DNA from: a virus | Virus record (IMG/VR): IMGVR_UViG_3300032307_000647 | Coordinates: 1-49,988 of that record | DNA: 49,988 bases | Reading direction: 5' to 3' (one strand) | Shown: in pieces, positions 1 to 43,276 of the stretch | Position numbering within the stretch: position 1 is the stretch's first letter | Layout: every line of letters begins with the position of its first letter | Translations under genes and position numbers: made by a program | The notes under the pieces: generated by a model | What the model was told of the DNA's origin: nothing | Seen by the model: the letters and a program-made list of their open reading frames with translations, nothing else | The model's database searches: none

Positions 1-123
1 ATGACCGGCACCCTGCTCGCGCACACCAAACAAGTGCGCAAGGCCGGCGGCGTCTACAGGCTTACCGGCTCGGACGTTCCCGTTACCTACAGGACGTTCA
101 TGCCTTACAGCGTCGAGGTCAGC
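1..123. repeat. Terminal direct repeat, left copy (contig closure)
   Basis: Bases 1-123 are repeated exactly at 49866-49988. The giant reading frame runs through both copies in the same phase. This is what an assembled circular molecule looks like when the assembler leaves an overlap. It could also be a genuine short terminal redundancy, but its position inside a gene favours assembly overlap of a circular or circularly permuted genome. One copy should be removed when counting length, giving about 49,865 bp. Confidence 0.95.
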
Positions 124-3100
124 ATCAAGACGCACGACTCGGAGGGCAACCCTCTCAGGTCTCCCAAGGGCGGCATCCTTATCCATTCAGTAGACGTGGC
201 CGCGGTGAACCGCAGGCTCATGAAGACCTTCAAGCGACCGGATGTTCGCGCCTTGTTCGGCGGCAACTTCGCGGAGTTCGTGGACAGGTTCAACTCCTAC
301 GTCTCCAATCAGTCCGGCCTCAGCGGAGCCAAGGTGCCCAGCGCTGATCTGTTCCGGGCTGAGTTCGGAGCCGACGCCGAGAAGGTCAGGGACATAATGT
401 ACGAGGCCTTCGGCGGCCGTAAGCGCAAGGACGACTCCTTCATCAATACGCCTGCCGACGGATATCTCGGCGGCGCCGACGATCCTAATCGTCCGTTCTA
501 CACGATGCGTTTCGACACGCTCGCGGACATCAAGGTTCACCCGACCTCTTGGAACGTCCACAGCAAGGTCCAGCCCTTCCCGTACGTCCACATACAGGGC
601 TACGACGGCATCTCTCGCAACTTCCAGATCACGGGCTTCACGGAGCGTGACATGGGCAACGGCCGCAAGTACCTCAAGGACAACAACGGCTTTGAGATCT
701 ACGAGACCAAGGGCGGATACGCCCTGTTTGATCCGTTCGCCATCAAGGTCGGCGTGTTCAAGACCGCCAAGGCGGCGATAAAGCGAGCCACCGCAGAGCT
801 GGCCAAGGTCGACGAAGCAGACAAGGTCGAGCAGTCCGACCCCACCATCAACGACGTTGGTCACAACGACCAGACCCTAGCGGACCTCGAGGTTGTTTCT
901 GACGCCATGAATCGCGGCGCTAGGTTCCACCTTACCGGCGTCAAGGATGTCGTCATCAAGTCCATGCACGCCGGCAAGGCCGTTGCTGACCACATCAACG
1001 ACTCCATCGGCGAGAAGGTCAACGAGATCGGATACGAGAACCGACCCGGCGGCACCGAGACCGCGTTCTCCCAGAAGTTCATCAGCCTGTACTCGATGCT
1101 TGGCGACGGCGCTAAGGCGTTTGACACCGAGGTCGAAGTCGACGGCACCAAGTACAAGATAGGCATGTCCGACACGCAGATCGTCGTGTCTGACCCGTCC
1201 GTCGGCTACTCCAAGGGCACCGAAGTCGTCGGCGGCTTCCAGAACGAGCTCATTAGGATAGACAGGAACTGGTTCAAGGACCTGTACGCCAAGGACAAGG
1301 CGCTCCTTCAGGATCAGCTGTCCAAGCGCATGGCTTACGCCCTGAAGGTAAGTGCGCTCCACAAGGCCGGTCTCATCCCGATGCCTACCGCCTTCACCAA
1401 GGAGGCCGTGTCCAGCTACAGGGCCATGGGAGAAGTCATGCTCGGAGGTGGAGCTGGAAGCAGGGACACCCGCGACGCGGCCATCTCCAAGCTTCTTGAA
1501 GGCCACGGCAAGGGCATGGCAGATCTGGCCGGAGATATCCGCTGGGTCATGTTCGACGCCGGCGACAAGAACAAGAAGAACTGGTCCGACAACAGGCCTT
1601 CAGAGAGCCCCAATTTCGTACCCAACACCTTCGCGCGAGGCGGAGCCGCAATCACCCCTAGGTGGGAGACGGCGTTCAACTCCTTCAAGATAAGCTCGAC
1701 CATGGCCTCGGACCCGAGGCTAAAGCCAATCATAGAGCAGGCCATGGCGGCCAAGTCTCCGGAGGCATACGCCGGCAAGGTTGGCGGAGAGCTTCCGCTG
1801 TACATCGACATAACGAAGATAGCCCTAGGCGACGCAGACCGAGACGCTCTTGCCTCCCAGCTGATGGCGGCCGGCGCAAGCCGTGGTGCCTTCTGGGAGT
1901 TCCATAGCAAGGCGTCCGGCATCGATGACATCATCCCGGCGCTCAGGGAGTTCATCGCAGGCTCCAAGCTAGGCAGGAATGAGTCGAGCTCCCGCAATAA
2001 GCTTACCAGAGCTCAGCAACTACAGATGGGCGAGAAGGCCCGCACTCCCATGCAGGAAGGCCCTGCCAAGGAGATGGTCGTCGGATACATGAAGTCCGTC
2101 GAAGAGCTGGCAAAGCGAGGCGGCATGTTCACCAAGTCCGTGGCCGGCTTCTTCGACAGCGAAGGAAAGCTACGCGTCGATGCCGCAGGCAAGAAGACCG
2201 GCTTCGTGTCCAGCGTGGCCATGATGGATATCAATGACCCGGACGTCATGAACGTCGCGTCGATGTCCAACCTGTACAACGCGCTCAAGACCATATCGGA
2301 AGACATAAGCAACGACCCGGCCAACGAGCGCCACAAGCTGGACTACGTCAGGGTCATGGCGCTTATCATGAGGATCACCAGCGACGAGAGCATGATCTTC
2401 CATGAGTTCAAGTCCTTGGATGACAGGAATCTCGCCCCCGGCTCCGGAGAGATCAGGGCGAAGACCGGCCTTCTTGCCGGCGGTCATAGCGAGTCGATGG
2501 ACTTCTATACGCTACCTCCGTCCGTCGCAGAGGTCGTCACTACTCCTCCCGGCCTCGGAGGCATATACGCCTACAACCCGGTCAACGTAAACAAGAACAC
2601 CCCGGCTAGGTTCGCCAAGATAGCTGAAGAGAGGGCGATGCACGTCGGAGACAGCGGAGTGCCCGCCATGATATTCGGAGTGCCTAAGTACGGAGAGAAG
2701 TACTCCGCGAGCGCGATAGACGCCGGCGGCATATCTCACTACGTCGCCACCGGTTCCCAGATCAAGGCGTTCATGAGCAACGTCAAGGGCTCCGCTAAGG
2801 TGACGACGGATCCGAGCAGTCTCGTCAAGACGGCCGACGGAATCATACCGGCCGGCGCAACCAACTGGGATGGCGTCATCCCGGCTCTTGCCCTTCAGAC
2901 GTTCGCGGCACCCGGCGGCGAAGCTAAGATGAAGGCCCTGATCCCCACCGCCCAGAAGGCGGTCGAGGGAACCATATCTTCCGTCGTCGGATGGAAGTGG
3001 AAGGGAATGATGGAGGCCGCTAGGTCCATGGCCCGTAGCCCTGAGTCCGTCCGCGCGTCCGACATAACCATGATGCTCAAGTCTGCCGGAGCTGTCGGCG

Positions 3101-6100
3101 ACAACATGACTGTCCTCGAACAGCTCATGCATGGCTACATCGATACCTATAGCTCCAACTCGGACGTCAGGGTCGCCGGCCTGCTACGCATCACCCAGTC
3201 TCTCGCCATCCATGAGAACCTGTTCAAGGCCGGCCTAGACGCGGACTCGTTCCCTGTGGACGGACCCGCCCACTCCTTGCTCAGGAGCATGGATGTCAGG
3301 CAGACCAAGCTCACCCCGTCGTCCAACAAGTACATGAGGATGATGAGGCAGTTCCTCAAGGATGGTAGCGTGGCCGACGTCAGCGGCGACTACAGGATCA
3401 TGGAGCGCCAGATTCCGGGTCAGGTCTCTCAGGCCGGCACCACGGGCCTTAATGTCGGATATGGAGTCAAGTCGACCGACACAGTACAGCAGACCAAGCT
3501 GATGATGCTTACCGGCTCCAAGGCCATAGCACAGCTGGACAATGCCAGAAAGGACGAGCTACACAGGCTTGGCTTGATCGGAAAGATGGCCGATGGATTC
3601 GGCCGCGAGTTCGATTACTTCGAGATGTCTGACGCCAAGGCGGAGCTGAACCTTAGCAGGTTCGGCGGCACGCGCGACGGAATCATAACCTCTACGATGC
3701 CGGGCGGCGTTGCCGTCGTGGACAGGTATCTGGACATGGTGGCAAAGAGCATAGTGGATGGCACGCCTACCTTCGATATGTCGGCGCAGATGGCCATCGA
3801 TAACCACATCCAGACGCTCAACATAAAGATGAGCGACATCCTGAGCCATCCGGAGCTGTATGCGTTCTATCCACAGCTTGCGAGCATGCCGGTCAAGATC
3901 AGGTTCACCGGAGACTCGATCGCCGCATACAATCCTGAAAAAGGAGGTAGCTTCAAGATAGATGCCAACTTCCTGCTTGAGGACAGGCTTTCCGAAAGGC
4001 TGGCTATCACCGGCAGGGACGAGCCTGCCAAGTGGAAGGACCAGCTCAGCAGGTACTTCTCGCCAGAGGCGCGCAACGAAAGGTTCAGGAGGGTCATCCT
4101 CCACGAGATACAGCACGCCATCGTTAATGCTGAAAACATGATACCGCTGGTGTATCCGTCCATGATCGACTCCGAGTTGGTCGTCGGAACCGCGGCAAAC
4201 ATAAAGGAGCCTAGGATGGCCGCGCACACGATCGCCGCCCTGTCTCCCAATCTTCCGGTGGTGCTTGGCGGATCTGATCTGGCACCGATAGGCGGCTCGA
4301 CTCAGTCACTTATCACCCCGGGCGGCTATGGCGACAAGGCATTCTTCGAGGCGGTGGACAAGAAGCTGATAGCGAAGATGGACGCCATGTACGCAAGCTC
4401 GTTGAAGCTACTCAGCTTCAGCCAGCGCGGCATGGACTACGTCATCGACCCTCTCGATCCGACTGCGATCAAGTCCGCCCTGTCCAAGATAGTAGACGCC
4501 CCCATGTCCATAGACCTGATGCGAAGGGTCGTGCCCAATCAAAAGCTACTCATCAACAAGATGATGGCCAAGATAGGCGGAGCCTACGACATCATATCCG
4601 CCACGCTTAGCGAGGCGGACAGGGATAGCGCGATGCTAAGGATAGAAGCGATGTCCGAGTTGCTGTCCGCGCACGAAGCACAGCTTGATGCGTACGCCCA
4701 GCTGATCCCCAAGTACGACCCGGCGGCGGCCCTAAAAGCCTCCGACTCGATGTTCTGGAAGATAAACGACATAAACAACGACACGGCGAACTTCGTCGAG
4801 TACCTTCAAGGCATCACCGGTGTCGATTACGACAGGGAGTTCGGAGTCCTCAAGGCCGAGGTTACCGCAGGCATCAAGATATCTCAGGCCAAGATGCAGA
4901 TGAACGCCGGGGCGGCCAGCATGACCCCGGAAAGCCTGAGCAAGCTGACGACCCTAGTGTATAGCGACCTATCTAACCTGCTATACTCCGGAGACCTTAA
5001 CGAGTTCATGGCCAACACGACCATGGCTAGGTCTAGGATGGGCGAAGCCGAGCTGGCCAACGCCGCGTTCCCGCAACCCCAGCCTCTGCACCAGACCATG
5101 GTGGCTCTGGCTAGGTACATGGACGACAACTACAACACGCGCTTCTTCGGAAATGACGCTCCGAAGCTCATGATGATCGGCGGATCCGCCGGCTCTGAGC
5201 AGATGAACGTCAGTCCGTTCGGCAAGGCCTCTGAGAATCTGTTCCGTGGCGGCGTAAGGATGATGGCTAGGGCCACCCTGCTCAGCCACTATGTGTCCAG
5301 CGTCAACGAGGACATCGCCAAGTACGGCAAGCTGATGTTCACCTCGCGCGGATGGAAGATTGGCGAGGACGGCATGCCCGTCTACGTCCACGAGGTAGGA
5401 ACCCTGACCGGAGCTCAGAGCGCCCTTGAGGGCTTTGGTGGCGCGGCTCGCAACCTTGCGTTCAACGTTGAAGGCGCCATCCGCAAGAAGACCGAGAACA
5501 AAGGCTACAGGGTGTTCGAGAATGTCGGCGAAACGTTCGGCAACTTCACCGGAAGCGAGCGTCAGGCTAACACTAACCTGAAGCCGATAGCGGACCTGAT
5601 ACAGGAGAATGACTTCATGCCCTCCACGGAGGCAGTTCACTCCGGGCCCGGCGGAACCATTCCGTTCCTCGGAGGACTGACCTCCGACGGAAAGTCTGTG
5701 ACCATCCAAGACGTGGCCAAGGCCATGGGCGCGGTCGTGGTCGTCGAAGACACCATAGGATACAGGAGCGAGGTAATGAACGCCCTGTATAATAGCTCTC
5801 GCAGGGGAATCCCTGACGTCATCTCCGCGGAAAAGCTCGTCGACACCTTCAAGGCCGCCGGCGTGCCTGATTCCGACATAGCATCGGCGAGGCTGACGGA
5901 GATCCAGAACAAGTTCCGCGGATCCGATCTGTCCGTCGGCGAGCTGATAGACCTCGTCGCAGTACTTCACGAGGTGCCCATCATAACCAGCTACAAGGGC
6001 GGAGACTCAATCAAGTCTGTCCTCGTCAGGATGCTTGGAGGAAGCGACGTGTCCTCCGAGATGAGGAAGCTGTACGACTACGCGACGAAGGAGAACGGAG

Positions 6101-9100
6101 CTTACGCTGAGGTCATGCGTTCCTACATCAACTGGGTCGTAGGAAAGCAGACTGGCAGGAATCCCCTTACCAGCATCTTCAAGGCTAGGATAGACACCGC
6201 CGGCGAAGGAGCTTCTGCCGGAAGGTTCTTCCTGATGGATGCGGTGAAGAACTCGATCCTGTTCGACTGGAACTCCTCGGACAATATCGCCCGCATGATT
6301 GGCAAGGAGAACGGGCAGAAGGTGGTTGATCGAATCGTAGCACGCCTGATTGCCAAGTACCCGGACGCCAACCCGTCCCATTCAACCGGCTTGGAGAACC
6401 TCCTGCTTAAGGAGGATACGTTGATGTCCATCGGCACCGACGTGTCCGGATGGGAGGCGAAAGAAAGGGCCAAGGTAGAATACCTGCTCAGGTTTACCAC
6501 GAGGCTCGAGAAGCTTCTCATGCACCTGACGCCCATGGCCGACAAGCTGGCGGCCAAGCTGGAGAGGTCCATCAAGACCGGAGACATGCTGATGGATAAC
6601 AGCGAGCGATCCGACAAGATGATGAAGCTCGTCGAGGAGTTCTACAGCTCCGCGCTGGAGGAAGGACTCGCAGATGTGCTGTCCACCTCGGCGCTGGCTT
6701 CGGGTCCGGACGGAGCGTTCCAGACCACTAGGGAGATTTACAGAAAGCTGGAAGGCAACAGGTCGTACACCAGCAACCAGCCCCACGAGAGCGTGCTCAA
6801 GAGGGGCTATGGATACGCCGGAGACTCCTTGGCCGCAGGCCACATGGTCTTCCATGGACTGATCGGCGGAGCCAACCATGCGTTCAAGGAAAGCGCCTAC
6901 ATAGGCGGCATGATGTCCGGCATGGTCGGAACCATGCTGTTCCCGGAAGGAAAGGATGCCTACGACTCGGTCTCTGCCAAGCTACTGGCTAGGGCCTACC
7001 CCGGCATGGACTTCTCTCCGGGCTCCGACGTTCCTGCGTCCGTGGAGATCAGGAGGGACGGAACCACTAGGTCTGTCCTGCGTGGCATCGGAAGGCATAC
7101 CACGGGCGAGCCCAAGGAAGAGGTGTCGCTGGCGTCTGCATTGTCCAACATCGAGGGCAAGAACGCCCTCAGGGCCATCACGAACCAGACCGATCAGCCA
7201 GCCTACTTGCTCAACGCCGTCGCCGCACAGCGCGTGCTGATGGTAAAAGCCAAGGCCCTGCTCGACTACATAGCCAAGTTCGAAGGAGAGCCCGGCATCG
7301 AATACAAGATGAGGCTCATCAAGGGATCCTCGTCGATAAATGCCAGCGACCTAGAGACCGCCTTCAGCTCTCCCGAGCTGTTGGGCATACTGCAAGGCGC
7401 CGACATCGGCCCCCAGCTGGTAAAGGCAAAAGGCCTCCTGTCCATAGCTGAGAGCGTCAATCAGGGGGCCCACAACATCGGAGCCGGCGGCATCGTCGCT
7501 CTGGATCAGGGCTTCTGGGAGATGCCCATAGCCATAGACAGGGATTATGCCGGCGGATACAAGCCGCTGGCACAGGCCGCGATGGTTCGAGCCTACACTA
7601 GGGGCGGCGCGAAGAAGAACTTCGTAGTATCTTCCGTCGTGGAAGCCCTAGGCTCCGCGCTGTCGAGCCAAGAGGCCTTGGTGATCAACAACCTGATCGG
7701 CAAGGACACCAGCAGGGAGGGCAAGATAGCCGCCTCCGAGCCGGTGCGCGTCATGGCTAGGACCATAGCCATCGGAGCAAACCTTCTGTCCGAGACGGAC
7801 ATGTATGACTCCCCTGTGTTCTTGGACTACGCGTCTCCCAGCTTTGAGACGGCCATGGAAAAGAGGAGGATGCCCAAGATCTCCCGGGCTCTTGCTCGCG
7901 CCGCGAAAAGCCTAGAGGGCGAGTACGACGATCTGGCAGACAACTCCTACTACATAGCTAGGAACAACTACAGCGGCGGAGGCCTGCACTACGTCCTGTC
8001 CAAGGGCTTCGTCAACGACGGCTTCCTTCGACGCGTAGCTCTGTCGATGGATGGAACCACCCTGCTTGCCGCCGCGTCTCAGATACTGAGCACGGCAACC
8101 GAGTACGACAACAACAAGGCGCTCGGATCAAAGCTGAGGAGGTTCGTGCAGAAGGACTGGATGCCGTTCCGATGGGACATCGGATCTGACATAGAGTATG
8201 CGGCCTTCTCGGATCAGATGAAGAGGGATGCCGTCACACTTAGCGCCTCCGTTGCCGCGTCGCTTGGCGCCATGGCCATACCGAGCATGAGGTACCCTCT
8301 GCTTGGCGACCACAGGCTCAGCTCGTCCACGTCTCCGGGTGCGTTCAAGGACCTCATGGAGATGGCCAAACAGCCAGACGGAAACTTCCCCGACGAAGCC
8401 GCGAGGGATAGGGTGGAATCCATGATTCACGGAGCCATGAACGGCATGCCGAATGGCATGAGCATGGATGCCATGAAGCAACTGTCCGTCCTCACCGGCC
8501 TGACGTTCCTTCAGCGACAGCTGTTCGACAAGCTTGGCACTCAGTTTAGCGCCAAGGAAAAGCTGGCCATCGAAGCGGCCGTGCACCACGCCGCCTCCAT
8601 GATGGACGTCGTCGAAAGCTACGACATCGACCCGATCATCGTGAGCCGCAAGCTCGCTCCGGGAGCAGACCCGACCATTCCTTGGAACTGGGGCAAGATA
8701 TCCTCTGGCGTAAACTCCGCCTCGTACGTCGCCAACAAGAACAAGCTTCAGTACGACCTGTTCCGCCGCGCTGTCAGGTCTCAGATGGACATGTTCTCCA
8801 TGTCTCAGTATCCGGCTAGGATAACCGGAATGCTGAAGGACTTGGCTCAGGTTCCCGGTTACAAGCGCACGTTCAAGAGGAACTCCATGAACGGATCTTA
8901 CTCTAGGTCCGAGGGCAATGTCAGGCTTGTCTCTGGCATAAGGGGAGACTCTCCCCATGGCGTTTCTAGGGGTGGAGACTCCGGGTCTCCGACCATGAAG
9001 CTCAACCCAGAGATGCTGGAAGGCGTGAGCGAGGACGAGTCTTACACCCACCTCAACACCTACGCAGGCAAGGGAGTGTATTCGTCTGAGCTGGATGGCT

Positions 9101-12100
9101 ACCTTCCTGTTGGCGAAGGCGTCTCATTTTCCGGCATCTACGCGATGCCCTCCGAGTACGAGGGCGGCGTGGTAGGAGCCCTGTTCAACATGGCCGACCC
9201 TATCGACCTCATCGACATGGATCCGCCGGAACAGCCGGGCATCGTTCAAGTCGACGTCGGCGCCGCAGGTAAAAGCGCCCTCAGCGAGTCCGTCATCAGG
9301 GCTTTCGTGTCTGATACCATCATATCTCAGGCGCAACGCGCTGGAGCCGAGACCATCGAGGTAGCTCCTGCCGGCGTACAGCTGTCCTACGGCGGCGCTG
9401 GCACGGCGGAGTTCTCCGGCAAGCTGTCGCACGAGACCATGGATGTAGCTACGGCTCAGGTCCACGGACGAGGCATGAGGACCATCAGCAAGACCTCGTA
9501 CCAGAACATACACTCTGGACGCTCCAAGAAGCCCTTGCTGATCCACGGAGACGGCGGCCTGATGGGCTTCAGCGGAATCACCACCGGCAAGGATGATCGC
9601 GGCGGAACCGGATACCTTGGAGACCCGCACAGGGCAGGCGAGTTCGCCACCAAGAAGGGCTACGCTTGGAAGCGACTCCCGGACGGCAGGATAATGATAA
9701 ACATCACGGGCGACCATCTTGGATACAAGGTGGACGACATGATGAAGAGGCCCGGCAGGGTCGGCTATGGATTCAGCTTGGCCGAGGGCGTCGGATACGA
9801 TCCGAACACCGGCCTTGTTATCCCGTCCAACCTATACTCCCAGATAGTCACGGCCGATTACCTAGAAGCGTTCGGCCATCCCATGGCCGCGGCGTTCACT
9901 CAAAAGGACCCTGCCATGATGCAGGCCTACATCGATGCGGCCATCAGGGACAAGAGGGGCTACCACCATACGCGCGGAAAGATTCCGGAAAGCATGCAGA
10001 TACTGGAAAAGCTCAGCACGAGCATCTCCGGAAGGATGGGAACGGACGTGTTCAAGGAGTTCATATCTGACAGGAACATTGCACTTGAGCGAAGGGCGTC
10101 TCACGCCGCTTCCATCAATGAGGTCATGGCTCCCAGCTCGTACACGACCCTGATACTCCCGGCCGGAATGAAGACCGAGGATCTGGCGGCCGTGCTCATG
10201 AGCATACATGCCGACCCTCTCGTCGGCGCGGCCATAATAGACGGATCCAAGCGAGACCGCGGCCAAAGGGCCGTGTTCGAGTTCCAGCTCGGGGATCACT
10301 TCTCGGGCGACAGGAACCAGCGCGGAACCTACAGGGGCGCCTACACGGGCAAGACAGTCATACCGCATGCGAGCACGGGGCCCTACTCCCGCGGAGCTCT
10401 TGTCGGCTTGAAAGACAGCGTCAACGTAGCCGTCTCTCAGGACGGACATCTATGGAGCGACGTCTATGCCGCGGCCAGCAGGATGCTGTCTCAGGACGGA
10501 GGCTACTTCCTGCCGGACACCGAAAGAACCCTCTCCATGAACGGAGACACCGGCCTAGCCATAACCAAGCTGTTCCCCGGAAGGCCCGATCTTCTGGCCA
10601 ACGCTTGGGATACCAAGGCTGGCCATGGCATAAAAGTCTGGAAGCGATCCGGCCCCAAGAACGATCCGAACTTCAGGGCGTACGTCGTCGAGCTCAACCA
10701 GCCGTCGGCCATCGCTCCGGAAGGCGGTCTCGTGATCGGCAAGAAGGCGGTTGCCTTCAAGACCGAAGCCGAAGCCATAGCCTACTCCAACAAGGTGGCC
10801 ACCCACGCCACCTCCGCGTCCACCATCCGCGCGCTCGCCGGCAACGACTTCCGTATCGTCGACAGGCCCAAGGAAGGCGGATCTGATAAGTTCGCTCCTG
10901 ACGCATCCGTCAGCGAGATCCAGCGCGTCACGCCCCAGACCGGCCGCGCGTTCCAAGAAGCCCTCGAGGGCACCGGCCTGTATAGGGTTGGTGACCTTGA
11001 TGAGGCCATGTCCATCGCCGACGCTAGGAAGCTCGGCAAGGCCCTTGGTCGCAACGCGCACATAGAGTTCGACACTCCCCCTGTTCAGCTTCGCCAGATC
11101 ACCGGCAAGACGATGGGAGAGCTCGAGTCCGTGGTCAGGCAGAAGCTCAACTTCGGCCTTCCTCAGGGAGCCATGAACTTCGCGTCCAAGGCGATGAACG
11201 CCATCATGCGTGGCCTTCCCCCCAACAACCGCGACTTCACGCACCTCACCGGATCCGACTGGATGAACCTGCTGAAGAAGAACGGCGTCAGCAAGGACGA
11301 GATAAGGCAGACCGGCCTAGGCCACCTGTTGCTCAACTCCGCCGCCGTGAAGCTAAGCAGGCAGGATCTGGCTGAGTTCCTAGCCGGAACGTATCCCTCG
11401 CTCACCAAGTCCCAGCCGGCCTTCTATGGCATGCACGCCGCTCAACAGCTGGCGGCCATGGGAGCTCCTGAGACCGAATCCGTACGAGGAATGAGGGGCA
11501 CCTTCGTGCCTCCGTACATACATGACGCTAGGTTGCAGAGCCGCGCCAATCAGTTCCACGCCCTGAACGCCATATTCGAGATGAGGGACAAGCTGGACCT
11601 TAGGGTCAGTACCTCCACGTCCGATTCCTTCAAGGCCAAGGCGGCTACGCTACAGGCCGTCATGGAGTCGAAGCTTGTTGATTTCGCCAAGGTCATCGGA
11701 GTCCCCGAAGAGCTTCTTGCCGAAACCAAGGAGCTGAAGTCAGTCCTGTATCAGGCGCTTACTGACGCCACCAACGAGCAAAAGCCCTTCGCCACCTATG
11801 ACATGCGTGGCCTCGAGATGTCTAGGTTCGACATCAACGACAAGATAAAGGCGCTCGCCAGCGATGCCGCCGATGGCGCCCTGTTCTCCGAGCTAGGAGA
11901 CATAGGCCCTTATGTCAGGACCCTCATGGGAAGCGACCTGCCCAAGCAGGCTACCACCCATACTGTCAAGATGCACGAGGCGGCCGTCAGCGACAGCCTC
12001 AAGACGGACTACGGATACGGATCCGGCCTCAGCGACGTGATGGGTCAAGTCATGCACTCGTATGGATCGTTCCCGTACACCTCCTACATATCCGGCGTAT

Positions 12101-15100
12101 ACGAGAACCACCACCAGTCCATAGTCAGGTACGGCGACAAGAAGGAAGTGGCGTCGATGAAGGCCTACATCAAGGAGATCAACGACGAGCTCACTCGCAG
12201 GAGAAGGGATCACGCCGCCGCGCCGTCCGACGCAAACAGCCAAAGGATAGCCGCGCTTGAGTCCATGAAGCAGACCGCCGAAAGGGTTCTGTATGTTCGA
12301 TCCGCGCTGGCCGTTCAGCTGTCCAAGGAAAGCAGCCGAAGGCACGGCACCCACTTCGACCATGGCATGCCTCCGGGTACCGGCATGTCCGGAGCTGGCG
12401 GAGCTTACGAGCTTGGCCACTCTAGGACTGGTTGGGGCATGATGACCTCGGCCCTAGGCCTAGACGGATTCGCAACGATCATGGGCGTGGATAAGAACGG
12501 CGAGCTTCCGCTTGGTTTCAGGCGCGAGCCAATAGCCCTCCTCGAAGAAGTTCAGTCTGACGTATTCCAGCACGTCGACTTCTTCGGAGCCTACCAAGAC
12601 GACAAGCTTTTCCTTCCGATCGACGCGAAGGAAATCGAATCCATGGGCAGGTCTTCCGAGCTGGCCGCCCTCGTCGCAGACCATGCCAAGCTCTTGGCCT
12701 TGTCCGACAAGGCTGAAGAAGGAGCCATCGCTCAGCTGAAGAACATCATAGGCAGGGCCGGCCGCGGCATGCCGAGCACCGGAACTAGGACCTTCGATAG
12801 GCTTTCCGCCAAGCTGTTCCTAGATCAGACGGACCTGTTCCAGAAGTCCATGATGCACGAGGCCATGCCTGCGTTGCTGAAGAACACCGGACGCAAGGTG
12901 AAGGTCTCCGACAACATCAAGGCCTCCATAGCTAGGATGACGAACGGCATGGTATCTCCCTCTGAGATATTCGTGTTCGAGTTCGACCACGAGCTGATAG
13001 ACCTCGTCCGTAGCTTCGGAGAAATCAGCAGGACCTCCGTCGACGCAAATGTGTTCGAGTTCATCCAGCAAAGGGCTCTCGAAAACGTCCGCGGCGCGAA
13101 GCACGCCGACCCGTCCGTGCCTACTCATCCTAGGGCGGCCGAGATGAAAGCCAAGATGATCAGGGACCTTGAAGCCGGCAACCTGACCAGCGTGATCAGG
13201 GAACAGCTCAAGATATCCGAGTCCATAATCCACCGGGGCGTCGAGGCTCTCAGGTCTCAAGGTTATGACGCCCTGCGTAACGAGGTCAGGTCGATGGACA
13301 CGATGGGCATACGCGGATCGACGTACAACTTCGTCAAGGCTCTGGACAAGCTGGGTAGCAACTCGTCTGAGATCGGCAACATCGTCGCATCCCACGTCGC
13401 GCGAGCCATGGTAAAGGACGAACAGCTGGCCATGCAGATGGCGGCTTACATCGATGGAACCGGAGCCGTAGACTACGAGGGCCTAGTGGACAGGACCATC
13501 GAGAGGATCCGCAAGGACTACGGAGACAGCAAGTCGTACATAGGTAAGGCCGTGTTGGTCATTCTGGACGAGATGAAGCGCATGCCGTCCGAGGCTAGGC
13601 CGCACTCCACGGCAAACACGGGCTTCGCCAATGTGAAGACCGCCTCGAACAATCCGTACGCGGACAGGTTCCACAACGCCGCCATAGCCATAGACAGGAC
13701 CCTGAGCGACGCCGAGATATCGGACATCGCGTCCAACCTTCCTCCTATCAAGGACGCGAACGGCGACGTGGTGTACGCAAGGGTCGACGGCAAGGGCTTC
13801 GTGATAGGCAACTCCGGCAACACGTTCCGCACGTTCAAGGATCAGATGGACTTCGTCACCTTCATCCGTGACGCGAGGAAGTCTGGAGCCACGAGCGACG
13901 ACATCACCATCATGGTGGCGCCCTATCATAGGCACGCCGGTACTGCCGCAGGAGACTTCGCCAAGAACGTCGTCGAGGTGTTCTCGGCCATGTCCGGAGG
14001 CCCCAAGTTCCTACAGATGGCCGAAGCCAAGCAGGTAGAAATAGCCGGCCTGCGCAAGGAAGTGAAGGAGACCTTCTCTCCGAGCGACTCCGGATCCGTA
14101 AAGACCCCGAAGGGTGACAAGACCATATACCCTGAAGCCATACCCTTCGTCAGGGATGGATTCTACAAGAGCACCCAGCTCATGCTCAATGTGCTGGACT
14201 CCATGAACCACGGCATGCACGGCGTCGGAATACTTGACGCCACCTATCAGCTACAGCGTGGCGGAGGTTTGGCCGAGCCGCAGGGCTGGCTCAAGATCGG
14301 CGGCGGCAAGGGATGGATACTGTCCATTGAAGAGCTGTTCGACGACGTCAGGGACGGAACTAAGTTCGTCAGCGGCGGCCTTCTGGCCTACGAGAAGAAG
14401 ACCGGCAATCCTGCCAACGGACCGGACGGACCTCATGGCGGCTTCCTACATAGGCTTGCCACCATGAACATAGAGTCCGAGCTAGGAACTAGCGCCGACT
14501 CGATAAGGTTCAGCCACAACGGAATCGAAAGGAACCTGCATGGACACCTTCAGCTTGCCTTGCGCCAGCTGAACCTGACGGCTCAAAACTACTTCCCGAC
14601 CGAGTGGACGGCCAAGTTTGAGAAGCTCATCAACGATATGAACGACCCGTTCAGATCCGTCATGGGCAGGCCGCATCAGTACGAAGGCAACAAGAGCATA
14701 GCCATTCCTCAGCGTAGCTCTGGCCCGGACAGGATCGCCTTGAAGATAGGCGAGCAGGGAGGACTGTTCGCTGTCGCAGGACCTTCCGGCGAGTCTGCCG
14801 GCTGGGGCTACATCACGAACTACGGACTTCCGTCCTATGCCTTGGAGCTCATCGCTCCGGGTAGCACGGCTGACTGGAGGGCCAACTACTCCCTAGACCT
14901 GTTTGAAAGGCCGCAGATCAACACCGACGGAAGCTGGCTCGTCCTCACCGACAAGTCCGGCCGCACGATAGACAAGATCGATCAGTCTCAGGCCACGCCG
15001 AGACAGCTCGAAGCTTTCCGCGAGCGGTTCCTCCAGCTGTCGCAGTACAAGGGAAGGAACTGGATGGTTGGCACCTTCCTCAAGGAGTTCGGCCCGGCCG

Positions 15101-15888
15101 GCGGCTACGTCGACTTCGGCGTCGTCGGACCCACGTCCACGTTCCTTGATCCTAGGTTCTCCGCCACTCCGTTCGGCAACAACGGCATCAAGTCTCCCTT
15201 CATCAACATCCAGCCCGACGACGTGCTGGCTCGCATCAGGGCCAAGTACATCGACAAGGGTCTGTTGCCTGTCCATGTGGGAGAAAAGTCCCCCGGATCG
15301 TCGCTACCCGGAATGAGGAACGAGGGATGGAACTCCGGCGACATGCCGGCCATAGCCGAAGAAGCCATGAAGCAGAGGGGCATGATAAGCCCTGAAGCTC
15401 AGACTAGGACCGGATGGTCGGAAGTCGCGTCCACCTTCAAGATTGCCGGCAACTCCACCGAAGAGAGCGTCGAGATCAATCCTCAGGGCGCCATGAGCAC
15501 GCCGATGCTGTACGGAGCCAAGGCCAACGCCAGAGATGGCGGCGGCCCGTTCTTCCACGCCGGACTCAATGACCTGAACCACATTCAGGGACTCGTAGCC
15601 ATGTACTTCCCGAGAGCGGCCCTCGATCCTGCGGCCAGCGCGGCTTACATCATGAGGATGACCAATCCTCTCACCACGACGCTCGTGCACACCCCGCTGA
15701 CTAGGACCAAGGAGCAGGACATACAGTTCCGCCGAAGGGTCATGGAAGGCATCCCGCTGATGCAGATCACCGGCGCCAATGTCGCCGGAGGCGAGTCAAT
15801 CAGCGCCAACGGGGTCAAGAGGCTGGCTTACTTGATGAAACAGCGTGAAATGCTCCCCAAGATCAAACAGCAAGATGAGACCCCCTGA
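1..15888 (+). CDS. Giant polyvalent virion protein, 3' part (residues 992-6286)
   Basis: This is the larger part of a single gene that begins at 46893 and crosses the contig junction. The ATG at base 1 is an internal methionine, residue 992. The part shown here is 5,295 codons and the whole product is 6,286 residues, roughly 0.67-0.7 MDa. Visible motifs are an HEIQH zincin signature (full-length residues 2359-2363), of the type found in large phage polyvalent proteins, and an EEVQSD motif (5173-5178) preceded by a GHSRTGW segment, a layout also known from such proteins. I find no cysteine in the translation. AGG, CTA and ATA codons are abundant. The gene lies after four internal-virion-like genes and before holin and spanin genes. 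By analogy with DarB-type proteins and the 4,600-residue virion protein of Bcep22-like podophages (from memory), it is probably carried in the virion and ejected. Most of its length is unrecognised. Confidence 0.9.
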   Translation: MTGTLLAHTKQVRKAGGVYRLTGSDVPVTYRTFMPYSVEVSIKTHDSEGNPLRSPKGGILIHSVDVAAVNRRLMKTFKRPDVRALFGGNFAEFVDRFNSYVSNQSGLSGAKVPSADLFRAEFGADAEKVRDIMYEAFGGRKRKDDSFINTPADGYLGGADDPNRPFYTMRFDTLADIKVHPTSWNVHSKVQPFPYVHIQGYDGISRNFQITGFTERDMGNGRKYLKDNNGFEIYETKGGYALFDPFAIKVGVFKTAKAAIKRATAELAKVDEADKVEQSDPTINDVGHNDQTLADLEVVSDAMNRGARFHLTGVKDVVIKSMHAGKAVADHINDSIGEKVNEIGYENRPGGTETAFSQKFISLYSMLGDGAKAFDTEVEVDGTKYKIGMSDTQIVVSDPSVGYSKGTEVVGGFQNELIRIDRNWFKDLYAKDKALLQDQLSKRMAYALKVSALHKAGLIPMPTAFTKEAVSSYRAMGEVMLGGGAGSRDTRDAAISKLLEGHGKGMADLAGDIRWVMFDAGDKNKKNWSDNRPSESPNFVPNTFARGGAAITPRWETAFNSFKISSTMASDPRLKPIIEQAMAAKSPEAYAGKVGGELPLYIDITKIALGDADRDALASQLMAAGASRGAFWEFHSKASGIDDIIPALREFIAGSKLGRNESSSRNKLTRAQQLQMGEKARTPMQEGPAKEMVVGYMKSVEELAKRGGMFTKSVAGFFDSEGKLRVDAAGKKTGFVSSVAMMDINDPDVMNVASMSNLYNALKTISEDISNDPANERHKLDYVRVMALIMRITSDESMIFHEFKSLDDRNLAPGSGEIRAKTGLLAGGHSESMDFYTLPPSVAEVVTTPPGLGGIYAYNPVNVNKNTPARFAKIAEERAMHVGDSGVPAMIFGVPKYGEKYSASAIDAGGISHYVATGSQIKAFMSNVKGSAKVTTDPSSLVKTADGIIPAGATNWDGVIPALALQTFAAPGGEAKMKALIPTAQKAVEGTISSVVGWKWKGMMEAARSMARSPESVRASDITMMLKSAGAVGDNMTVLEQLMHGYIDTYSSNSDVRVAGLLRITQSLAIHENLFKAGLDADSFPVDGPAHSLLRSMDVRQTKLTPSSNKYMRMMRQFLKDGSVADVSGDYRIMERQIPGQVSQAGTTGLNVGYGVKSTDTVQQTKLMMLTGSKAIAQLDNARKDELHRLGLIGKMADGFGREFDYFEMSDAKAELNLSRFGGTRDGIITSTMPGGVAVVDRYLDMVAKSIVDGTPTFDMSAQMAIDNHIQTLNIKMSDILSHPELYAFYPQLASMPVKIRFTGDSIAAYNPEKGGSFKIDANFLLEDRLSERLAITGRDEPAKWKDQLSRYFSPEARNERFRRVILHEIQHAIVNAENMIPLVYPSMIDSELVVGTAANIKEPRMAAHTIAALSPNLPVVLGGSDLAPIGGSTQSLITPGGYGDKAFFEAVDKKLIAKMDAMYASSLKLLSFSQRGMDYVIDPLDPTAIKSALSKIVDAPMSIDLMRRVVPNQKLLINKMMAKIGGAYDIISATLSEADRDSAMLRIEAMSELLSAHEAQLDAYAQLIPKYDPAAALKASDSMFWKINDINNDTANFVEYLQGITGVDYDREFGVLKAEVTAGIKISQAKMQMNAGAASMTPESLSKLTTLVYSDLSNLLYSGDLNEFMANTTMARSRMGEAELANAAFPQPQPLHQTMVALARYMDDNYNTRFFGNDAPKLMMIGGSAGSEQMNVSPFGKASENLFRGGVRMMARATLLSHYVSSVNEDIAKYGKLMFTSRGWKIGEDGMPVYVHEVGTLTGAQSALEGFGGAARNLAFNVEGAIRKKTENKGYRVFENVGETFGNFTGSERQANTNLKPIADLIQENDFMPSTEAVHSGPGGTIPFLGGLTSDGKSVTIQDVAKAMGAVVVVEDTIGYRSEVMNALYNSSRRGIPDVISAEKLVDTFKAAGVPDSDIASARLTEIQNKFRGSDLSVGELIDLVAVLHEVPIITSYKGGDSIKSVLVRMLGGSDVSSEMRKLYDYATKENGAYAEVMRSYINWVVGKQTGRNPLTSIFKARIDTAGEGASAGRFFLMDAVKNSILFDWNSSDNIARMIGKENGQKVVDRIVARLIAKYPDANPSHSTGLENLLLKEDTLMSIGTDVSGWEAKERAKVEYLLRFTTRLEKLLMHLTPMADKLAAKLERSIKTGDMLMDNSERSDKMMKLVEEFYSSALEEGLADVLSTSALASGPDGAFQTTREIYRKLEGNRSYTSNQPHESVLKRGYGYAGDSLAAGHMVFHGLIGGANHAFKESAYIGGMMSGMVGTMLFPEGKDAYDSVSAKLLARAYPGMDFSPGSDVPASVEIRRDGTTRSVLRGIGRHTTGEPKEEVSLASALSNIEGKNALRAITNQTDQPAYLLNAVAAQRVLMVKAKALLDYIAKFEGEPGIEYKMRLIKGSSSINASDLETAFSSPELLGILQGADIGPQLVKAKGLLSIAESVNQGAHNIGAGGIVALDQGFWEMPIAIDRDYAGGYKPLAQAAMVRAYTRGGAKKNFVVSSVVEALGSALSSQEALVINNLIGKDTSREGKIAASEPVRVMARTIAIGANLLSETDMYDSPVFLDYASPSFETAMEKRRMPKISRALARAAKSLEGEYDDLADNSYYIARNNYSGGGLHYVLSKGFVNDGFLRRVALSMDGTTLLAAASQILSTATEYDNNKALGSKLRRFVQKDWMPFRWDIGSDIEYAAFSDQMKRDAVTLSASVAASLGAMAIPSMRYPLLGDHRLSSSTSPGAFKDLMEMAKQPDGNFPDEAARDRVESMIHGAMNGMPNGMSMDAMKQLSVLTGLTFLQRQLFDKLGTQFSAKEKLAIEAAVHHAASMMDVVESYDIDPIIVSRKLAPGADPTIPWNWGKISSGVNSASYVANKNKLQYDLFRRAVRSQMDMFSMSQYPARITGMLKDLAQVPGYKRTFKRNSMNGSYSRSEGNVRLVSGIRGDSPHGVSRGGDSGSPTMKLNPEMLEGVSEDESYTHLNTYAGKGVYSSELDGYLPVGEGVSFSGIYAMPSEYEGGVVGALFNMADPIDLIDMDPPEQPGIVQVDVGAAGKSALSESVIRAFVSDTIISQAQRAGAETIEVAPAGVQLSYGGAGTAEFSGKLSHETMDVATAQVHGRGMRTISKTSYQNIHSGRSKKPLLIHGDGGLMGFSGITTGKDDRGGTGYLGDPHRAGEFATKKGYAWKRLPDGRIMINITGDHLGYKVDDMMKRPGRVGYGFSLAEGVGYDPNTGLVIPSNLYSQIVTADYLEAFGHPMAAAFTQKDPAMMQAYIDAAIRDKRGYHHTRGKIPESMQILEKLSTSISGRMGTDVFKEFISDRNIALERRASHAASINEVMAPSSYTTLILPAGMKTEDLAAVLMSIHADPLVGAAIIDGSKRDRGQRAVFEFQLGDHFSGDRNQRGTYRGAYTGKTVIPHASTGPYSRGALVGLKDSVNVAVSQDGHLWSDVYAAASRMLSQDGGYFLPDTERTLSMNGDTGLAITKLFPGRPDLLANAWDTKAGHGIKVWKRSGPKNDPNFRAYVVELNQPSAIAPEGGLVIGKKAVAFKTEAEAIAYSNKVATHATSASTIRALAGNDFRIVDRPKEGGSDKFAPDASVSEIQRVTPQTGRAFQEALEGTGLYRVGDLDEAMSIADARKLGKALGRNAHIEFDTPPVQLRQITGKTMGELESVVRQKLNFGLPQGAMNFASKAMNAIMRGLPPNNRDFTHLTGSDWMNLLKKNGVSKDEIRQTGLGHLLLNSAAVKLSRQDLAEFLAGTYPSLTKSQPAFYGMHAAQQLAAMGAPETESVRGMRGTFVPPYIHDARLQSRANQFHALNAIFEMRDKLDLRVSTSTSDSFKAKAATLQAVMESKLVDFAKVIGVPEELLAETKELKSVLYQALTDATNEQKPFATYDMRGLEMSRFDINDKIKALASDAADGALFSELGDIGPYVRTLMGSDLPKQATTHTVKMHEAAVSDSLKTDYGYGSGLSDVMGQVMHSYGSFPYTSYISGVYENHHQSIVRYGDKKEVASMKAYIKEINDELTRRRRDHAAAPSDANSQRIAALESMKQTAERVLYVRSALAVQLSKESSRRHGTHFDHGMPPGTGMSGAGGAYELGHSRTGWGMMTSALGLDGFATIMGVDKNGELPLGFRREPIALLEEVQSDVFQHVDFFGAYQDDKLFLPIDAKEIESMGRSSELAALVADHAKLLALSDKAEEGAIAQLKNIIGRAGRGMPSTGTRTFDRLSAKLFLDQTDLFQKSMMHEAMPALLKNTGRKVKVSDNIKASIARMTNGMVSPSEIFVFEFDHELIDLVRSFGEISRTSVDANVFEFIQQRALENVRGAKHADPSVPTHPRAAEMKAKMIRDLEAGNLTSVIREQLKISESIIHRGVEALRSQGYDALRNEVRSMDTMGIRGSTYNFVKALDKLGSNSSEIGNIVASHVARAMVKDEQLAMQMAAYIDGTGAVDYEGLVDRTIERIRKDYGDSKSYIGKAVLVILDEMKRMPSEARPHSTANTGFANVKTASNNPYADRFHNAAIAIDRTLSDAEISDIASNLPPIKDANGDVVYARVDGKGFVIGNSGNTFRTFKDQMDFVTFIRDARKSGATSDDITIMVAPYHRHAGTAAGDFAKNVVEVFSAMSGGPKFLQMAEAKQVEIAGLRKEVKETFSPSDSGSVKTPKGDKTIYPEAIPFVRDGFYKSTQLMLNVLDSMNHGMHGVGILDATYQLQRGGGLAEPQGWLKIGGGKGWILSIEELFDDVRDGTKFVSGGLLAYEKKTGNPANGPDGPHGGFLHRLATMNIESELGTSADSIRFSHNGIERNLHGHLQLALRQLNLTAQNYFPTEWTAKFEKLINDMNDPFRSVMGRPHQYEGNKSIAIPQRSSGPDRIALKIGEQGGLFAVAGPSGESAGWGYITNYGLPSYALELIAPGSTADWRANYSLDLFERPQINTDGSWLVLTDKSGRTIDKIDQSQATPRQLEAFRERFLQLSQYKGRNWMVGTFLKEFGPAGGYVDFGVVGPTSTFLDPRFSATPFGNNGIKSPFINIQPDDVLARIRAKYIDKGLLPVHVGEKSPGSSLPGMRNEGWNSGDMPAIAEEAMKQRGMISPEAQTRTGWSEVASTFKIAGNSTEESVEINPQGAMSTPMLYGAKANARDGGGPFFHAGLNDLNHIQGLVAMYFPRAALDPAASAAYIMRMTNPLTTTLVHTPLTRTKEQDIQFRRRVMEGIPLMQITGANVAGGESISANGVKRLAYLMKQREMLPKIKQQDETP
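4102..4116 (+). other. Second zinc-metallopeptidase motif (HEIQH) of the giant protein
   Basis: These codons encode H-E-I-Q-H, full-length residues 2359-2363, in the context VILHEIQHAIV. The hydrophobic residues before HE and after the second H match the helix of zincin peptidases. The LHEIQHAI form is characteristic of phage polyvalent-protein peptidase domains. The third zinc ligand is not obvious by eye; acidic residues follow in the next hundred positions. Proteolysis of itself or of a host protein is inference. Confidence 0.65.
12544..12561 (+). other. EEVQSD motif domain of the giant protein
   Basis: These codons encode E-E-V-Q-S-D, full-length residues 5173-5178, in the context IALLEEVQSDVFQ. 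About 50 residues upstream is GHSRTGW, and about 100 residues downstream is a helix containing HEAMPALL. The order H-x-R, then EE(I/V)QSD, then a helix with a P-L/LP element recurs in large polyvalent proteins of phages and mobile elements. The biochemical function of that domain is not established as far as I know, so none is assigned. Confidence 0.5.
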
Positions 15889-20857: not shown

Positions 20858-21000
20858 TTTGCAGGCCTCCATTTGTTGCGCTCCATGATCTTAGCCCATC
20901 GCTCTTTATTCCATTTCTGGAAGGAGGCTATGACCTTCCTTTCATGGGGCGTCAGCTCTTTGAGCCCGGGCTTCATAATTTCTGGACGGCGCTTCTTCAT
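20854..21000 (-). CDS. Small basic protein, translationally coupled
   Basis: A 48-residue basic protein: MKKRRPEIMKPGL, then a helical segment rich in Lys, Trp and Glu, ending WRPAK. It overlaps the helicase loader gene upstream and the endolysin gene downstream by ATGA at both ends, which supports it as a real coupled cistron. No family is recognised. Confidence 0.6.
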   Translation of the reverse strand: MKKRRPEIMKPGLKELTPHERKVIASFQKWNKERWAKIMERNKWRPAK

Positions 21001-21716
21001 ATCATCTCGGGCGTCTCGACGCCGGGCGCGACGGCCACGCTCGCAAACAGATCCTTGTCCTTAAGACGTGCGACGAAGGCCGCGCCGATCTCCTTGTCCG
21101 GGAACCTATCATGCAACGACTGGCCGGTGTGATTGGTCGTGATGATAGTAGGCTTGCACGACTGCGTGCGCTGGTCGATGAGGGCAAAGAGCACGGAGGC
21201 CATGCGCTCCGTCATCTTCTCCTTGCCCAGATCGTCGAGCCCAAGCACGTCGCATTCGACGAGCTCCTTCATCGTGCGGTCCCACCTGTCCTTGCCCCAC
21301 GCGCTCACCAGCTCGGCCTCAAGCTCGAACATGGTAAGCACCCGGACATAACGCTTCATGCCCTTGAGCCTGTTGCGGACGTACCAAAGGCAACGCGTCT
21401 TGCCCTTGCGCGTGGCCCCATGGATCAGGAGCGAGCGCTTGGTCTTGGATGGATCCCAATGCAGGGCGACGTTGCGAAGCACCTCGGGCAACCTGTCGGG
21501 ATCCGTGTCCTTGAAGAGCTCCGGGCATCCATCCGTGTTGCTAGGGCTAGGCTTGATGCCCTCCTCCTTCGCGCGGATAGCCTCGGCCGCGAGCACGCAG
21601 GCGTCAGCCTTGCAGTACTCGGCCGGAGCCAACTTGATCACGTTGCCGGCGATCTCGAGGAACTTGGGCTCAATCATGGCCCCACAGTTCACGCACGGCT
21701 TACCTTCGTGGTTCAT
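20997..21716 (-). CDS. DnaC-like replicative helicase loader (AAA+ ATPase)
   Basis: A 239-residue ATPase that probably loads the host replicative helicase at the phage origin. An N-terminal cysteine cluster (CVNC at 8-11, further Cys at 35 and 40) may bind zinc. The AAA+ core has Walker A GATRKGKT (100-107), Walker B DVLGLDDLG (156-164), a sensor-like TIITTNH and a C-terminal AAFVARL with a candidate arginine finger, as in DnaC/IstB-type loaders. The start at 21716 is chosen because the family's N-terminal zinc-like region begins here; it overlaps the preceding small gene by 17 bases. The initiator gene and origin lie just upstream, giving a lambda O/P-like arrangement. Confidence 0.82.
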   Translation of the reverse strand: MNHEGKPCVNCGAMIEPKFLEIAGNVIKLAPAEYCKADACVLAAEAIRAKEEGIKPSPSNTDGCPELFKDTDPDRLPEVLRNVALHWDPSKTKRSLLIHGATRKGKTRCLWYVRNRLKGMKRYVRVLTMFELEAELVSAWGKDRWDRTMKELVECDVLGLDDLGKEKMTERMASVLFALIDQRTQSCKPTIITTNHTGQSLHDRFPDKEIGAAFVARLKDKDLFASVAVAPGVETPEMI

Positions 21717-21875: not shown

Positions 21876-22541
21876 TCAGAAACCTTTCGCGTGGTCGTTG
21901 TCAGACTGGGCCGGCTTGCTAATGCGCACATAGCCGTGCTGGCCCGCCGGTGCCTTCACATGGATCGACTGCCACTCGTTGCGGCCCGACACCTCAAGAG
22001 CGTCGATGGCCGCCTTAGGATCGAAGCCAGACAGGTATTTGGCCTGCTTCACCTGCCATGCAAGGCTGGTGGTCCACTTGCGCTGACGCCTGAGGGCGAC
22101 GTAGTCAGACCAAGCGTTCCAGAGATCCTTAGACCAAGCCTTGATGATGGTCTGAAACTCCTCCGCCTGTATCTTATTCTTATCGTTTATATCATTAGTA
22201 TCTATTGGGTGAAGTTTCTTTCGCCCCTCCCCTGAAACTTTTTTCACCCCCCCGGTGAAGTTTTCTTCACCCCCATCGAGCGCGAGGGTGACGATGTCCC
22301 AGAGGACGCCGTTCGGGTCACGCTTGATGTGGCCGGCAAGCTCAAGCTCGCCGATCAGGAGCTGAACGTTCCGATCAGAGCAGTTCAGGTACGCGGCAAG
22401 CGTGGCGCGCGACGCGTAGCACCCCTTCTCGTTGGAGAGGATGTGCACGATGGACCACAGGAACTTGGCGTTGGTGCTGATGTTGGGGTCGCTGAATATC
22501 TTGGCCGGTATCCAGACGCCCTTGAATGGAAGGTCGCTCAT
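21876..22541 (-). CDS. O-like replication initiator carrying the origin in its coding sequence
   Basis: A 221-residue protein with an N-terminal winged-helix domain. KFLWSIVHILSNEKG (26-40) then ASRATLAAYLNCSDRNVQLLIGELELAGHI (in outline 43-72) match the HTH_36-type pattern in which an arginine/serine recognition helix follows a conserved leucine helix. A hydrophilic linker (about 90-130) follows, then a C-terminal helical domain with repeated Trp and basic residues. The linker is encoded by three iterons and an AT-rich block (22171-22271), as in lambda gene O, where the protein binds repeats inside its own gene. The ATG at 22541 overlaps the preceding stop as ATGA, and the helicase loader lies downstream. 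Function is inferred from fold pattern, context and the embedded repeats. Confidence 0.78.
   Translation of the reverse strand: MSDLPFKGVWIPAKIFSDPNISTNAKFLWSIVHILSNEKGCYASRATLAAYLNCSDRNVQLLIGELELAGHIKRDPNGVLWDIVTLALDGGEENFTGGVKKVSGEGRKKLHPIDTNDINDKNKIQAEEFQTIIKAWSKDLWNAWSDYVALRRQRKWTTSLAWQVKQAKYLSGFDPKAAIDALEVSGRNEWQSIHVKAPAGQHGYVRISKPAQSDNDHAKGF
22171..22206. other. AT-rich DNA unwinding element of the predicted origin
   Basis: 29 of these 36 bases are A or T (81%), in a genome that is otherwise GC-rich. The block directly adjoins the iteron array at 22208. It lies within the initiator's linker codons. Position and composition match a duplex unwinding element at an iteron origin. Confidence 0.7.
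22208..22271. repeat. Three 18-bp iterons at exact 23-bp spacing (predicted replication origin)
   Basis: Repeats begin at 22208, 22231 and 22254. The third, GGTGAAGTTTTCTTCACC, is a perfect inverted repeat with 7-bp arms around TTTT. The first matches it at 15 of 18 positions and the second at 13 of 18. The constant 23-bp step is about two helical turns, as expected for initiators bound on one face. The array sits inside the initiator gene beside an AT-rich block, the layout of lambda ori. Confidence 0.75.
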
Positions 22542-25011: not shown

Positions 25012-25087
25012 TGGTGGGCCCTGCCGGATTCGAACCGGCAACCAATCCCTTATGAGGGGACTGCTCTGACCATTGAGCTAAGGGCCC
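25012..25087 (-). tRNA. tRNA-Ile2 (anticodon CAT, probable lysidine type)
   Basis: A 76-base cloverleaf with encoded CCA. The acceptor GGGCCCT pairs with AGGGCCC, the anticodon stem is GTCCC/GGGAT around CTCATAA, and the T stem GCCGG/CCGGC with loop TTCGAAT. CAT could mean elongator Met, but the C4-G69 and C5-G68 pairs and the general resemblance to E. coli ileX and the T4 tRNA-Ile2 favour a tRNA modified by TilS to read ATA. ATA codons are frequent in the late genes. Confidence 0.85.
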
Positions 25088-42203: not shown

Positions 42204-43276
42204 TGCAACAACTACAATCACTATACCGGGGCGACTCCTCCCCTTCCCTGTCCCAGATATTTGGGATGCAGTACCAGCCCCAGCAGGCCATATCGCAAGC
42301 GGCCAACACGGCCGTAGGCTCTGGCATGTCTGCCGGCGCGCAGGTCAAAACGACGGCCATGAACAACGCCACGCAGATGGCGATCGCCGACGCGAACCGG
42401 TTCGAGAATCAGAGGCAGTTTAATCTCACCAACAAGCTGTACAACAGGAACGCATCCGAGAACGAGAGGCACAACCTGTCCACGGAAGCCAACGCTGACA
42501 AGATTACGGCGTGGAATACCGGAGGCCAGCAGGCGGCCGGCGATGAAGAGGCGAAGGGTATCATTAGCGCCCAGATAAACGACCTCACCACTACGCTAAA
42601 TAGCCTAGATAAGAACGATCCAAGCTACCAGAAGAAGGCTCAATACCTCAGGGACAGGATCAAATCCATTCAAGATGGAGGCAATAAGGCCGCACAAACG
42701 CGAGGAGGTCTTAGCGGGTTTGCAAAAGGCCTAGCCAACACCTACGCAAAAAACGGCCTGTTCGAGGGACTAGGCAAAGAGCTTACGCGCGTAGGCGCGC
42801 AGGGGCCCACTCCTTCGGCTAAGCCGGTTGCGAAAACGCCTAGCGAGATAAGCCCGGTTGCTGTCACTTCATGGCCGAGCTCGAATGGAACAGTTATATC
42901 GCTCCCCTCAGGATCCAATATCAACTCGTTTAACCTAACCGGAGGATCCGCGCCGGCCACGCTTAGCGGTAGCGTCTTTAACATGACTGGCACGGGCCAG
43001 ACCAACTTGACTGGCGTGACCACGCTCGGCGGACAGCCCGTATCGGGTCCGCTAACCATAGGGCCGTCTAGCCCGGCTACGACTCCACCGGCGACGACTC
43101 CACCGGCGACGACTCCTCCAGCCGGAACTCCACCGGCCGCAACTTCCGGGAGAACCTTCTTCCCGCTAACCCCATCAGCGCCGACTCCGCTCGCTCCCCC
43201 TGCGGCCGCAAGCGGAACTACGTTCTCGTTCTTCCCAAGACCTGCTGAGTTCAGGCCCACTCCGTCCGGATTGTAA
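42203..43276 (+). CDS. Internal-virion-like protein with Pro/Thr repeats, Cys-free
   Basis: A 357-residue protein starting MQQLQSLYRGDSS at 42203 (TAATG overlap). The N-terminal half is Gln/Ala/Asn-rich helix (QAISQAANTAVGSG, then TQMAIADANRFENQRQF). The C-terminal third is a Ser/Thr/Pro linker with a tandem TTPPA motif (DNA repeats of 15 bases at 43079-43138) and a final Pro-rich tail. No cysteine is present. It resembles podovirus internal proteins that go into the capsid and are ejected, but the family is not recognised. Confidence 0.55.
   Translation: MQQLQSLYRGDSSPSLSQIFGMQYQPQQAISQAANTAVGSGMSAGAQVKTTAMNNATQMAIADANRFENQRQFNLTNKLYNRNASENERHNLSTEANADKITAWNTGGQQAAGDEEAKGIISAQINDLTTTLNSLDKNDPSYQKKAQYLRDRIKSIQDGGNKAAQTRGGLSGFAKGLANTYAKNGLFEGLGKELTRVGAQGPTPSAKPVAKTPSEISPVAVTSWPSSNGTVISLPSGSNINSFNLTGGSAPATLSGSVFNMTGTGQTNLTGVTTLGGQPVSGPLTIGPSSPATTPPATTPPATTPPAGTPPAATSGRTFFPLTPSAPTPLAPPAAASGTTFSFFPRPAEFRPTPSGL
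43079..43138 (+). repeat. 15-bp tandem repeat encoding T-T-P-P-A
   Basis: Four consecutive 15-base units, the first two identical (ACGACTCCACCGGCG) and the next two diverged. They encode a Pro/Thr linker within the 357-residue protein. Copy number could vary between strains by slippage. Confidence 0.7.

Follow-up and report, generated by a model that had tools for sequence, protein, structure and literature searches.

The DNA analyzed here (the window) is the complete 49,988-bp record IMGVR_UViG_3300032307_000647, which derives from an uncultured freshwater phage. The record begins and ends with a 123-bp exact direct terminal repeat (positions 1–123 and 49866–49988); this points to a genome of 49,865 bp that is closed or circularly permuted, and probably closed. 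About one-third of the record (1–15888, plus strand) is a single ORF of 5,295 codons, three pieces of which were searched and matched no PHROG family at E ≤ 0.001; a tandem repeat with 15-bp units lies at 43073–43144, amid likely structural genes. The locus of interest contains a replication initiator gene, three iterons and an AT-rich block inside that gene, and a helicase loader gene downstream, separated from the initiator gene by a 57-codon ORF (Table 1).

Table 1. Features of the initiator locus, in window coordinates.
Feature	Positions	Strand	Description
Replication initiator gene	21876..22541	-	221 aa; HTH_36, PHROG matches, AF2 model
Iteron 1 (first in reading order)	22254..22271	-	GGTGAAGAAAACTTCACC; peptide G-E-E-N-F-T
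Iteron 2	22231..22248	-	GGTGAAAAAAGTTTCAGG; one frame over, peptide V-K-K-V-S
Iteron 3	22208..22225	-	GGCGAAAGAAACTTCACC; stop-prone frame, peptide R-K-K-L-H; T to C avoids TGA
AT-rich block	22171..22206		29/36 A/T, presumed DNA unwinding element; 3' of iterons on coding strand
Helicase loader gene	20997..21716	-	DnaC/IstB-type, Walker A GATRKGKT; Pfam IstB_IS21, PHROG DnaC-like

The initiator consists of a winged-helix N-domain, a linker predicted to be disordered and a helical C-domain. The N-domain matches Pfam HTH_36 (PF13730; residues 20–72, E = 8e-8, 32.4 bits vs the curated cutoff of 25); at E ≤ 0.1, the only other Pfam match is a weak one to DprA_WH, so that neither Phage_rep_O (PF04492) nor RepA_N (PF06970) is matched at this threshold. 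The PHROG matches are to DnaD-like and O-like initiators (E = 3.7e-6 for the O-like family). A PDB sequence search returned weak matches only, mostly MarR-like, and a tblastn search against GenBank phages returned no match. In the AlphaFold model, the helical C-domain is confident and residues 82–118 have pLDDT values <50. The top PDB matches of this model in Foldseek are the N-domains of RepA_N initiators (4PTA and 5KBJ, the latter a Rep–DNA complex; E = 0.006–0.013); the E-values are weak overall (0.006–0.05) and the Z-scores (VIA) of the RepA_N N-domain folds (8.3–8.5) are tied with those of LexA-type winged helices, so the fold class is supported and not the family.

The array lies ~270 bp inside the gene. 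A reading of the sequence made before this analysis (the sequence-only reading) had placed it in the linker between the helix-turn-helix and C-terminal domains, and the boundaries of the HTH_36 match and of the low-pLDDT stretch agree with this placement: the array occupies codons 90–111, within that stretch, and the AT-rich block occupies approximately codons 111–123, at its end. Because this region encodes only a flexible linker, it is free to carry a DNA signal.

The downstream loader that had been described as DnaC-like is present, with profile matches to Pfam IstB_IS21 (8.5e-10), PHROG DnaC-like (1.4e-21) and, weakly, Bac_DnaA. A similar loader gene lies downstream of the initiator gene in seven other loci (L079, L086, L087, L038, L049, L050 and L056). 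The same reading had called the two genes an ‘O/P-like pair’. A loader is indeed there, but it is a DnaC/IstB-type AAA+ protein, and its Pfam and PHROG matches (only IstB_IS21, weak Bac_DnaA and DnaC-like PHROGs) include no lambda P family; the likeness to O/P is therefore functional only.

The three iterons are 18-bp inverted repeats, each within one mismatch of GTGAA-N6-TTCAC, with start-to-start distances of exactly 23 bp. Their reported starts (22208, 22231 and 22254), inverted-repeat form and spacing were reproduced: Tandem Repeats Finder independently calls a period of 23 over 22208–22274. No other site in the 49,988 bp lies within one mismatch of GTGAA-N6-TTCAC, and the array is also exceptional by a motif-free array score (45, whereas the runner-up elsewhere in the window scores 36). 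The A/T count given earlier for the adjoining block is exact, and this block is the sole place in the record where at least 29 of 36 bp are A/T; thus, the array and the block, neither of which has a counterpart elsewhere in the 50-kb record, adjoin one another.

A spacing of 23 is not divisible by three, so the iterons fall in three frames and encode different peptides (GEENFT, GVKKVS and GRKKLH). In the third of these frames, an intact GTGAA would place a TGA stop codon in frame; in the window, as in each of the ten close relatives, this copy instead contains CGA (Arg; GCGAA or CCGAA). The sequence-only reading had named in advance, as a check, whether the repeats persist despite codon divergence, and they do: all ten close relatives keep three copies, each with 0–2 arm mismatches, and the 16-bp core of iteron 1 is intact in all except L085 (right arm TTCGT). 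With seven relatives and degeneracy-matched resampling, synonymous codon identity is 0.87 in the iteron codons vs 0.66 elsewhere (p ~1e-4) and 0.89–0.90 vs 0.66 in the AT-rich block (p ~0.04); the p-values are indicative, since the sequences share ancestry. Synonymous identity among the relatives is also high over codons ~152–179 in the C-domain, a stretch with no obvious repeats. In L087, whose initiator is 46–51% identical, three copies are kept, but the third-frame copy is lost and one is present further upstream; the array is thus shifted one unit upstream within the protein, as expected if an array of DNA sites can slide along the codons of a linker.

These comparisons bear on whether the repeats are a feature of the protein, that is, a repeated linker peptide or the remnant of a recent tandem duplication. 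Linkers often bear repeats, and some of the period-24 arrays found elsewhere do repeat a peptide (GEENFTTPGEENFT); in the window, however, each copy encodes a peptide of its own, conservation extends to synonymous sites, and when the protein was recoded synonymously 400 times, no version reached the array score (maximum 33 vs 45 for the real sequence). We regard a protein-level origin of the repeats as very improbable; the pattern of conservation indicates that the repeats are selected as DNA, not as peptide.

Arrays of the same kind are found elsewhere. We scanned 2.9 million viral contigs (IMG/VR) for two intact GTGAA-N6-TTCAC cores separated by 3–14 bp and obtained 75 loci, in which the start-to-start spacing peaks at 23 and 24; a control that used a single scramble of the arms (GAGTA-N6-TACTC) returned 16 loci, with periods of 19–22 and none at 23–24. 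Part of the excess over the scramble comes from arrays outside initiators, so the initiator loci, picked by hand from array position and family match, were analyzed apart. These 38 loci form ~18 initiator clusters with similar arrays in the same linker position, and the commonest spacings among them are 23 (39 intervals) and 24 (24 intervals). AT content rises downstream (3') of the array (+0.13) and not upstream (5'; +0.004); the downstream value is the larger in 34 of the 38 loci and in ~15 of the 18 clusters. When 22 representative ORFs were scanned, 11 matched HTH_36, two Phage_rep_O and one RepA_N, models that overlap. Two slightly differing initiator copies (L077 and L078) lie at the two ends of one contig (3300043419_001406), perhaps the result of a cross-strain assembly or of a real duplication.

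In the 38 loci, perfect copies number 56 and 45 in two of the frames and zero in the stop-prone frame, an absence that is forced by the need for an open frame; the informative point, as we read these sequences, is that near-perfect copies are retained at the right spacing in the stop-prone frame (14 imperfect copies). Among all 75 loci, perfect triples spaced 24/24 are present and perfect triples spaced 23/23 are not, and where a 23-bp perfect pair is accompanied by a third copy within one mismatch, the third copy is disrupted within what would otherwise be the TGA.

The same 14 copies bear on the proposal that the repeats function as hairpins in the mRNA or as cruciforms; each copy has a form suited to this (an inverted repeat with a 6-base center). 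All 14 are changed in one arm only, with TTCAC intact in the other and no compensation, and the six central bases vary freely; the relatives likewise show no compensatory double changes. Single-arm changes without compensation fit half-site recognition rather than pairing, and we give a structural role for the repeats scarcely any weight.

The GTGAA-N6-TTCAC palindrome is not confined to initiators. Seventeen of the 75 viral loci (L057, L042 and their clusters) lie in non-initiator ORFs; these form two clusters in which the pairs are mostly 24 bp apart. In L057, the array immediately precedes a repressor-like helix-turn-helix reading frame, and the palindrome may therefore serve there as an operator. 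Genome-wide, pairs of GTGAA-N6-TTCAC at 22–25 bp are mostly actinobacterial and often found at ORF starts; loci L109–L227, mostly from Streptomyces and other actinobacteria, include many GTGAAT-type palindrome pairs at these distances, again often at ORF starts. Because pairs with this spacing are common outside initiators, the presence of the motif is not by itself enough to define an origin. The main rival to an origin is an operator array, to which a repressor or the initiator itself would bind inside the gene and block transcription, with no origin function. The repressor-like neighbor in the viral cluster and the ORF-start positions in actinobacterial genomes are what such a reading would expect; however, it does not explain why the array lies in the linker codons, ~270 bp inside the gene, next to the most AT-rich block in the record, nor why that position recurs across initiators, and the initiator, once bound, could fulfill both functions. 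We judge an operator with no origin function to be unlikely, although less so than the other rivals.

A generic palindrome search of cultured relatives identified an array with a different core in the same position: in Bifidobacterium phage PMBT6 (L235), three copies of GGTGACACCCATGTCACC are located at 1546–1663 inside an HTH-domain gene. We interpret these GTGAC variants as a natural specificity variant of the array. In a Klebsiella phage, the search identified another palindrome pair spaced at 24; it revealed no clear regular array in SE-1, TMW1.706P2, TP901-1, c5 or phi31.1.

Other nucleoprotein sites, for example, a partition site or a replication pause site, can likewise be palindromic arrays. 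No partition gene was recognized among the subset of ORFs that was scanned, and the combination of a position inside the initiator gene, an AT-rich block and a loader gene fits an origin; a site of this type has, in our estimate, only a slim chance of being correct. The sequence-only reading had also proposed GC skew as a check, and here the origin assignment gained nothing: the site is unmarked (the record-wide minimum is at 43327 and the maximum at 25018). The known origin of lambda is also unmarked by skew; because lambda failed as a positive control, we dropped skew as an origin marker.

Considering what was observed directly (a layout that is found only once in the record, is conserved at the DNA level and recurs in other initiators, and the likeness in fold), we conclude that the locus is very probably a lambda-type in-gene replication origin that is bound by the product of its own gene; binding, melting, loading and firing are predicted. 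In the proposed mechanism, dimers of the winged-helix N-domain would bind the three 23-bp-spaced palindromes, each monomer contacting one half-site; the nucleoprotein complex thus formed would strain and then melt the adjoining AT-rich block; and the C-domain, together with the DnaC-like loader, would bring in a DnaB-type helicase of the host so that replication could start.

In-gene origins of this kind are already known; the interesting part is the occurrence of one iteron core, in this position in many phages that are only distantly related, across initiators that match three Pfam models. A possible generalization, which we offer tentatively and think somewhat less probable than its converse, is that GTGAA-N6-TTCAC at 23–24 bp is a common iteron code of winged-helix initiators matched by HTH_36, Phage_rep_O or RepA_N in phages of distant hosts, that the N-domain and its origin constitute a portable module, and that the architecture of the array reflects a compromise between spacing and stop codons in the three reading frames. 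A limited literature search with few subscription papers (spellings of the GTGAA/TTCAC core, also with iteron terms) returned nothing relevant, and in it we found no description of one iteron core that recurs in the linkers of initiators matching three Pfam models, in arrays whose architecture is shaped by a stop codon in one frame. For the uncultured freshwater phage group, the analysis locates the likely origin. It also points to a way of finding origins by sequence alone, that is, by searching initiator linkers for palindromes ~23–24 bp apart that cross reading frames, and the shared core raises the question of whether the origins of phages and plasmids use a common recognition code and are exchanged as modules.

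Proven in-gene origins (lambda, phi80, SPP1 and pSK41) follow the plan seen in the window. The layout is that of lambda, whose origin is located in gene O and consists of iterons and AT-rich DNA (PMC7466680). The comparison with lambda, made in the sequence-only reading, is borne out: as in the window, the lambda iterons are 18-bp imperfect inverted repeats between the N- and C-domains of the initiator (spaced at 20, 24 and 23 bp, compared with 23 and 23 in the window), the AT-rich DNA is 3' on the coding strand, and a loader gene lies downstream. The systems differ in iteron sequence (ATCCCTC...GAGGGA in lambda vs the GTGAA-N6-TTCAC type), in iteron number (four or six in lambda, the Stx phages and phi80 vs three) and in the families of their proteins; the window initiator matches HTH_36 and not Phage_rep_O, and its loader is DnaC/IstB-like rather than lambda P. 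Gene 15 of phi80, with four sites inside the gene, follows the same plan as the window. In SPP1, oriL has origin repeats and an AT-rich unwinding element inside gene 38, and a separate helicase loader (gp39) is encoded (PMC6316719); likened by description, it shares with the window an origin inside the initiator gene and a separate loader, but SPP1 encodes its own helicase (gp40).

Of the plasmid systems, pSK41 shares the spacing as well as the plan. Its rep gene contains four palindromic boxes at exactly 23-bp spacing followed by AT-rich DNA; its boxes are in frames 1, 0, 2 and 1, so that all three frames are used, as in the window. The linker encoded by the pSK41 boxes is reported to be dispensable and can be deleted (PMC5703833). 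The N-domain of the pSK41 protein may fold like the model of the window initiator, a likeness with a weak Foldseek E-value and a tie with LexA-type folds on Z. The pSK41 system differs in its box (GTGTCAAAAGGACAC), its family (RepA_N), its plasmid context and its C-domain, which binds DnaG primase. The chimeric Rep of pPR9 joins an HTH_36 N-domain to its own adjacent in-gene origin segment and supports autonomous replication (PMC5703833); likened by description, it resembles the window in having an HTH_36 domain beside an in-gene origin region.
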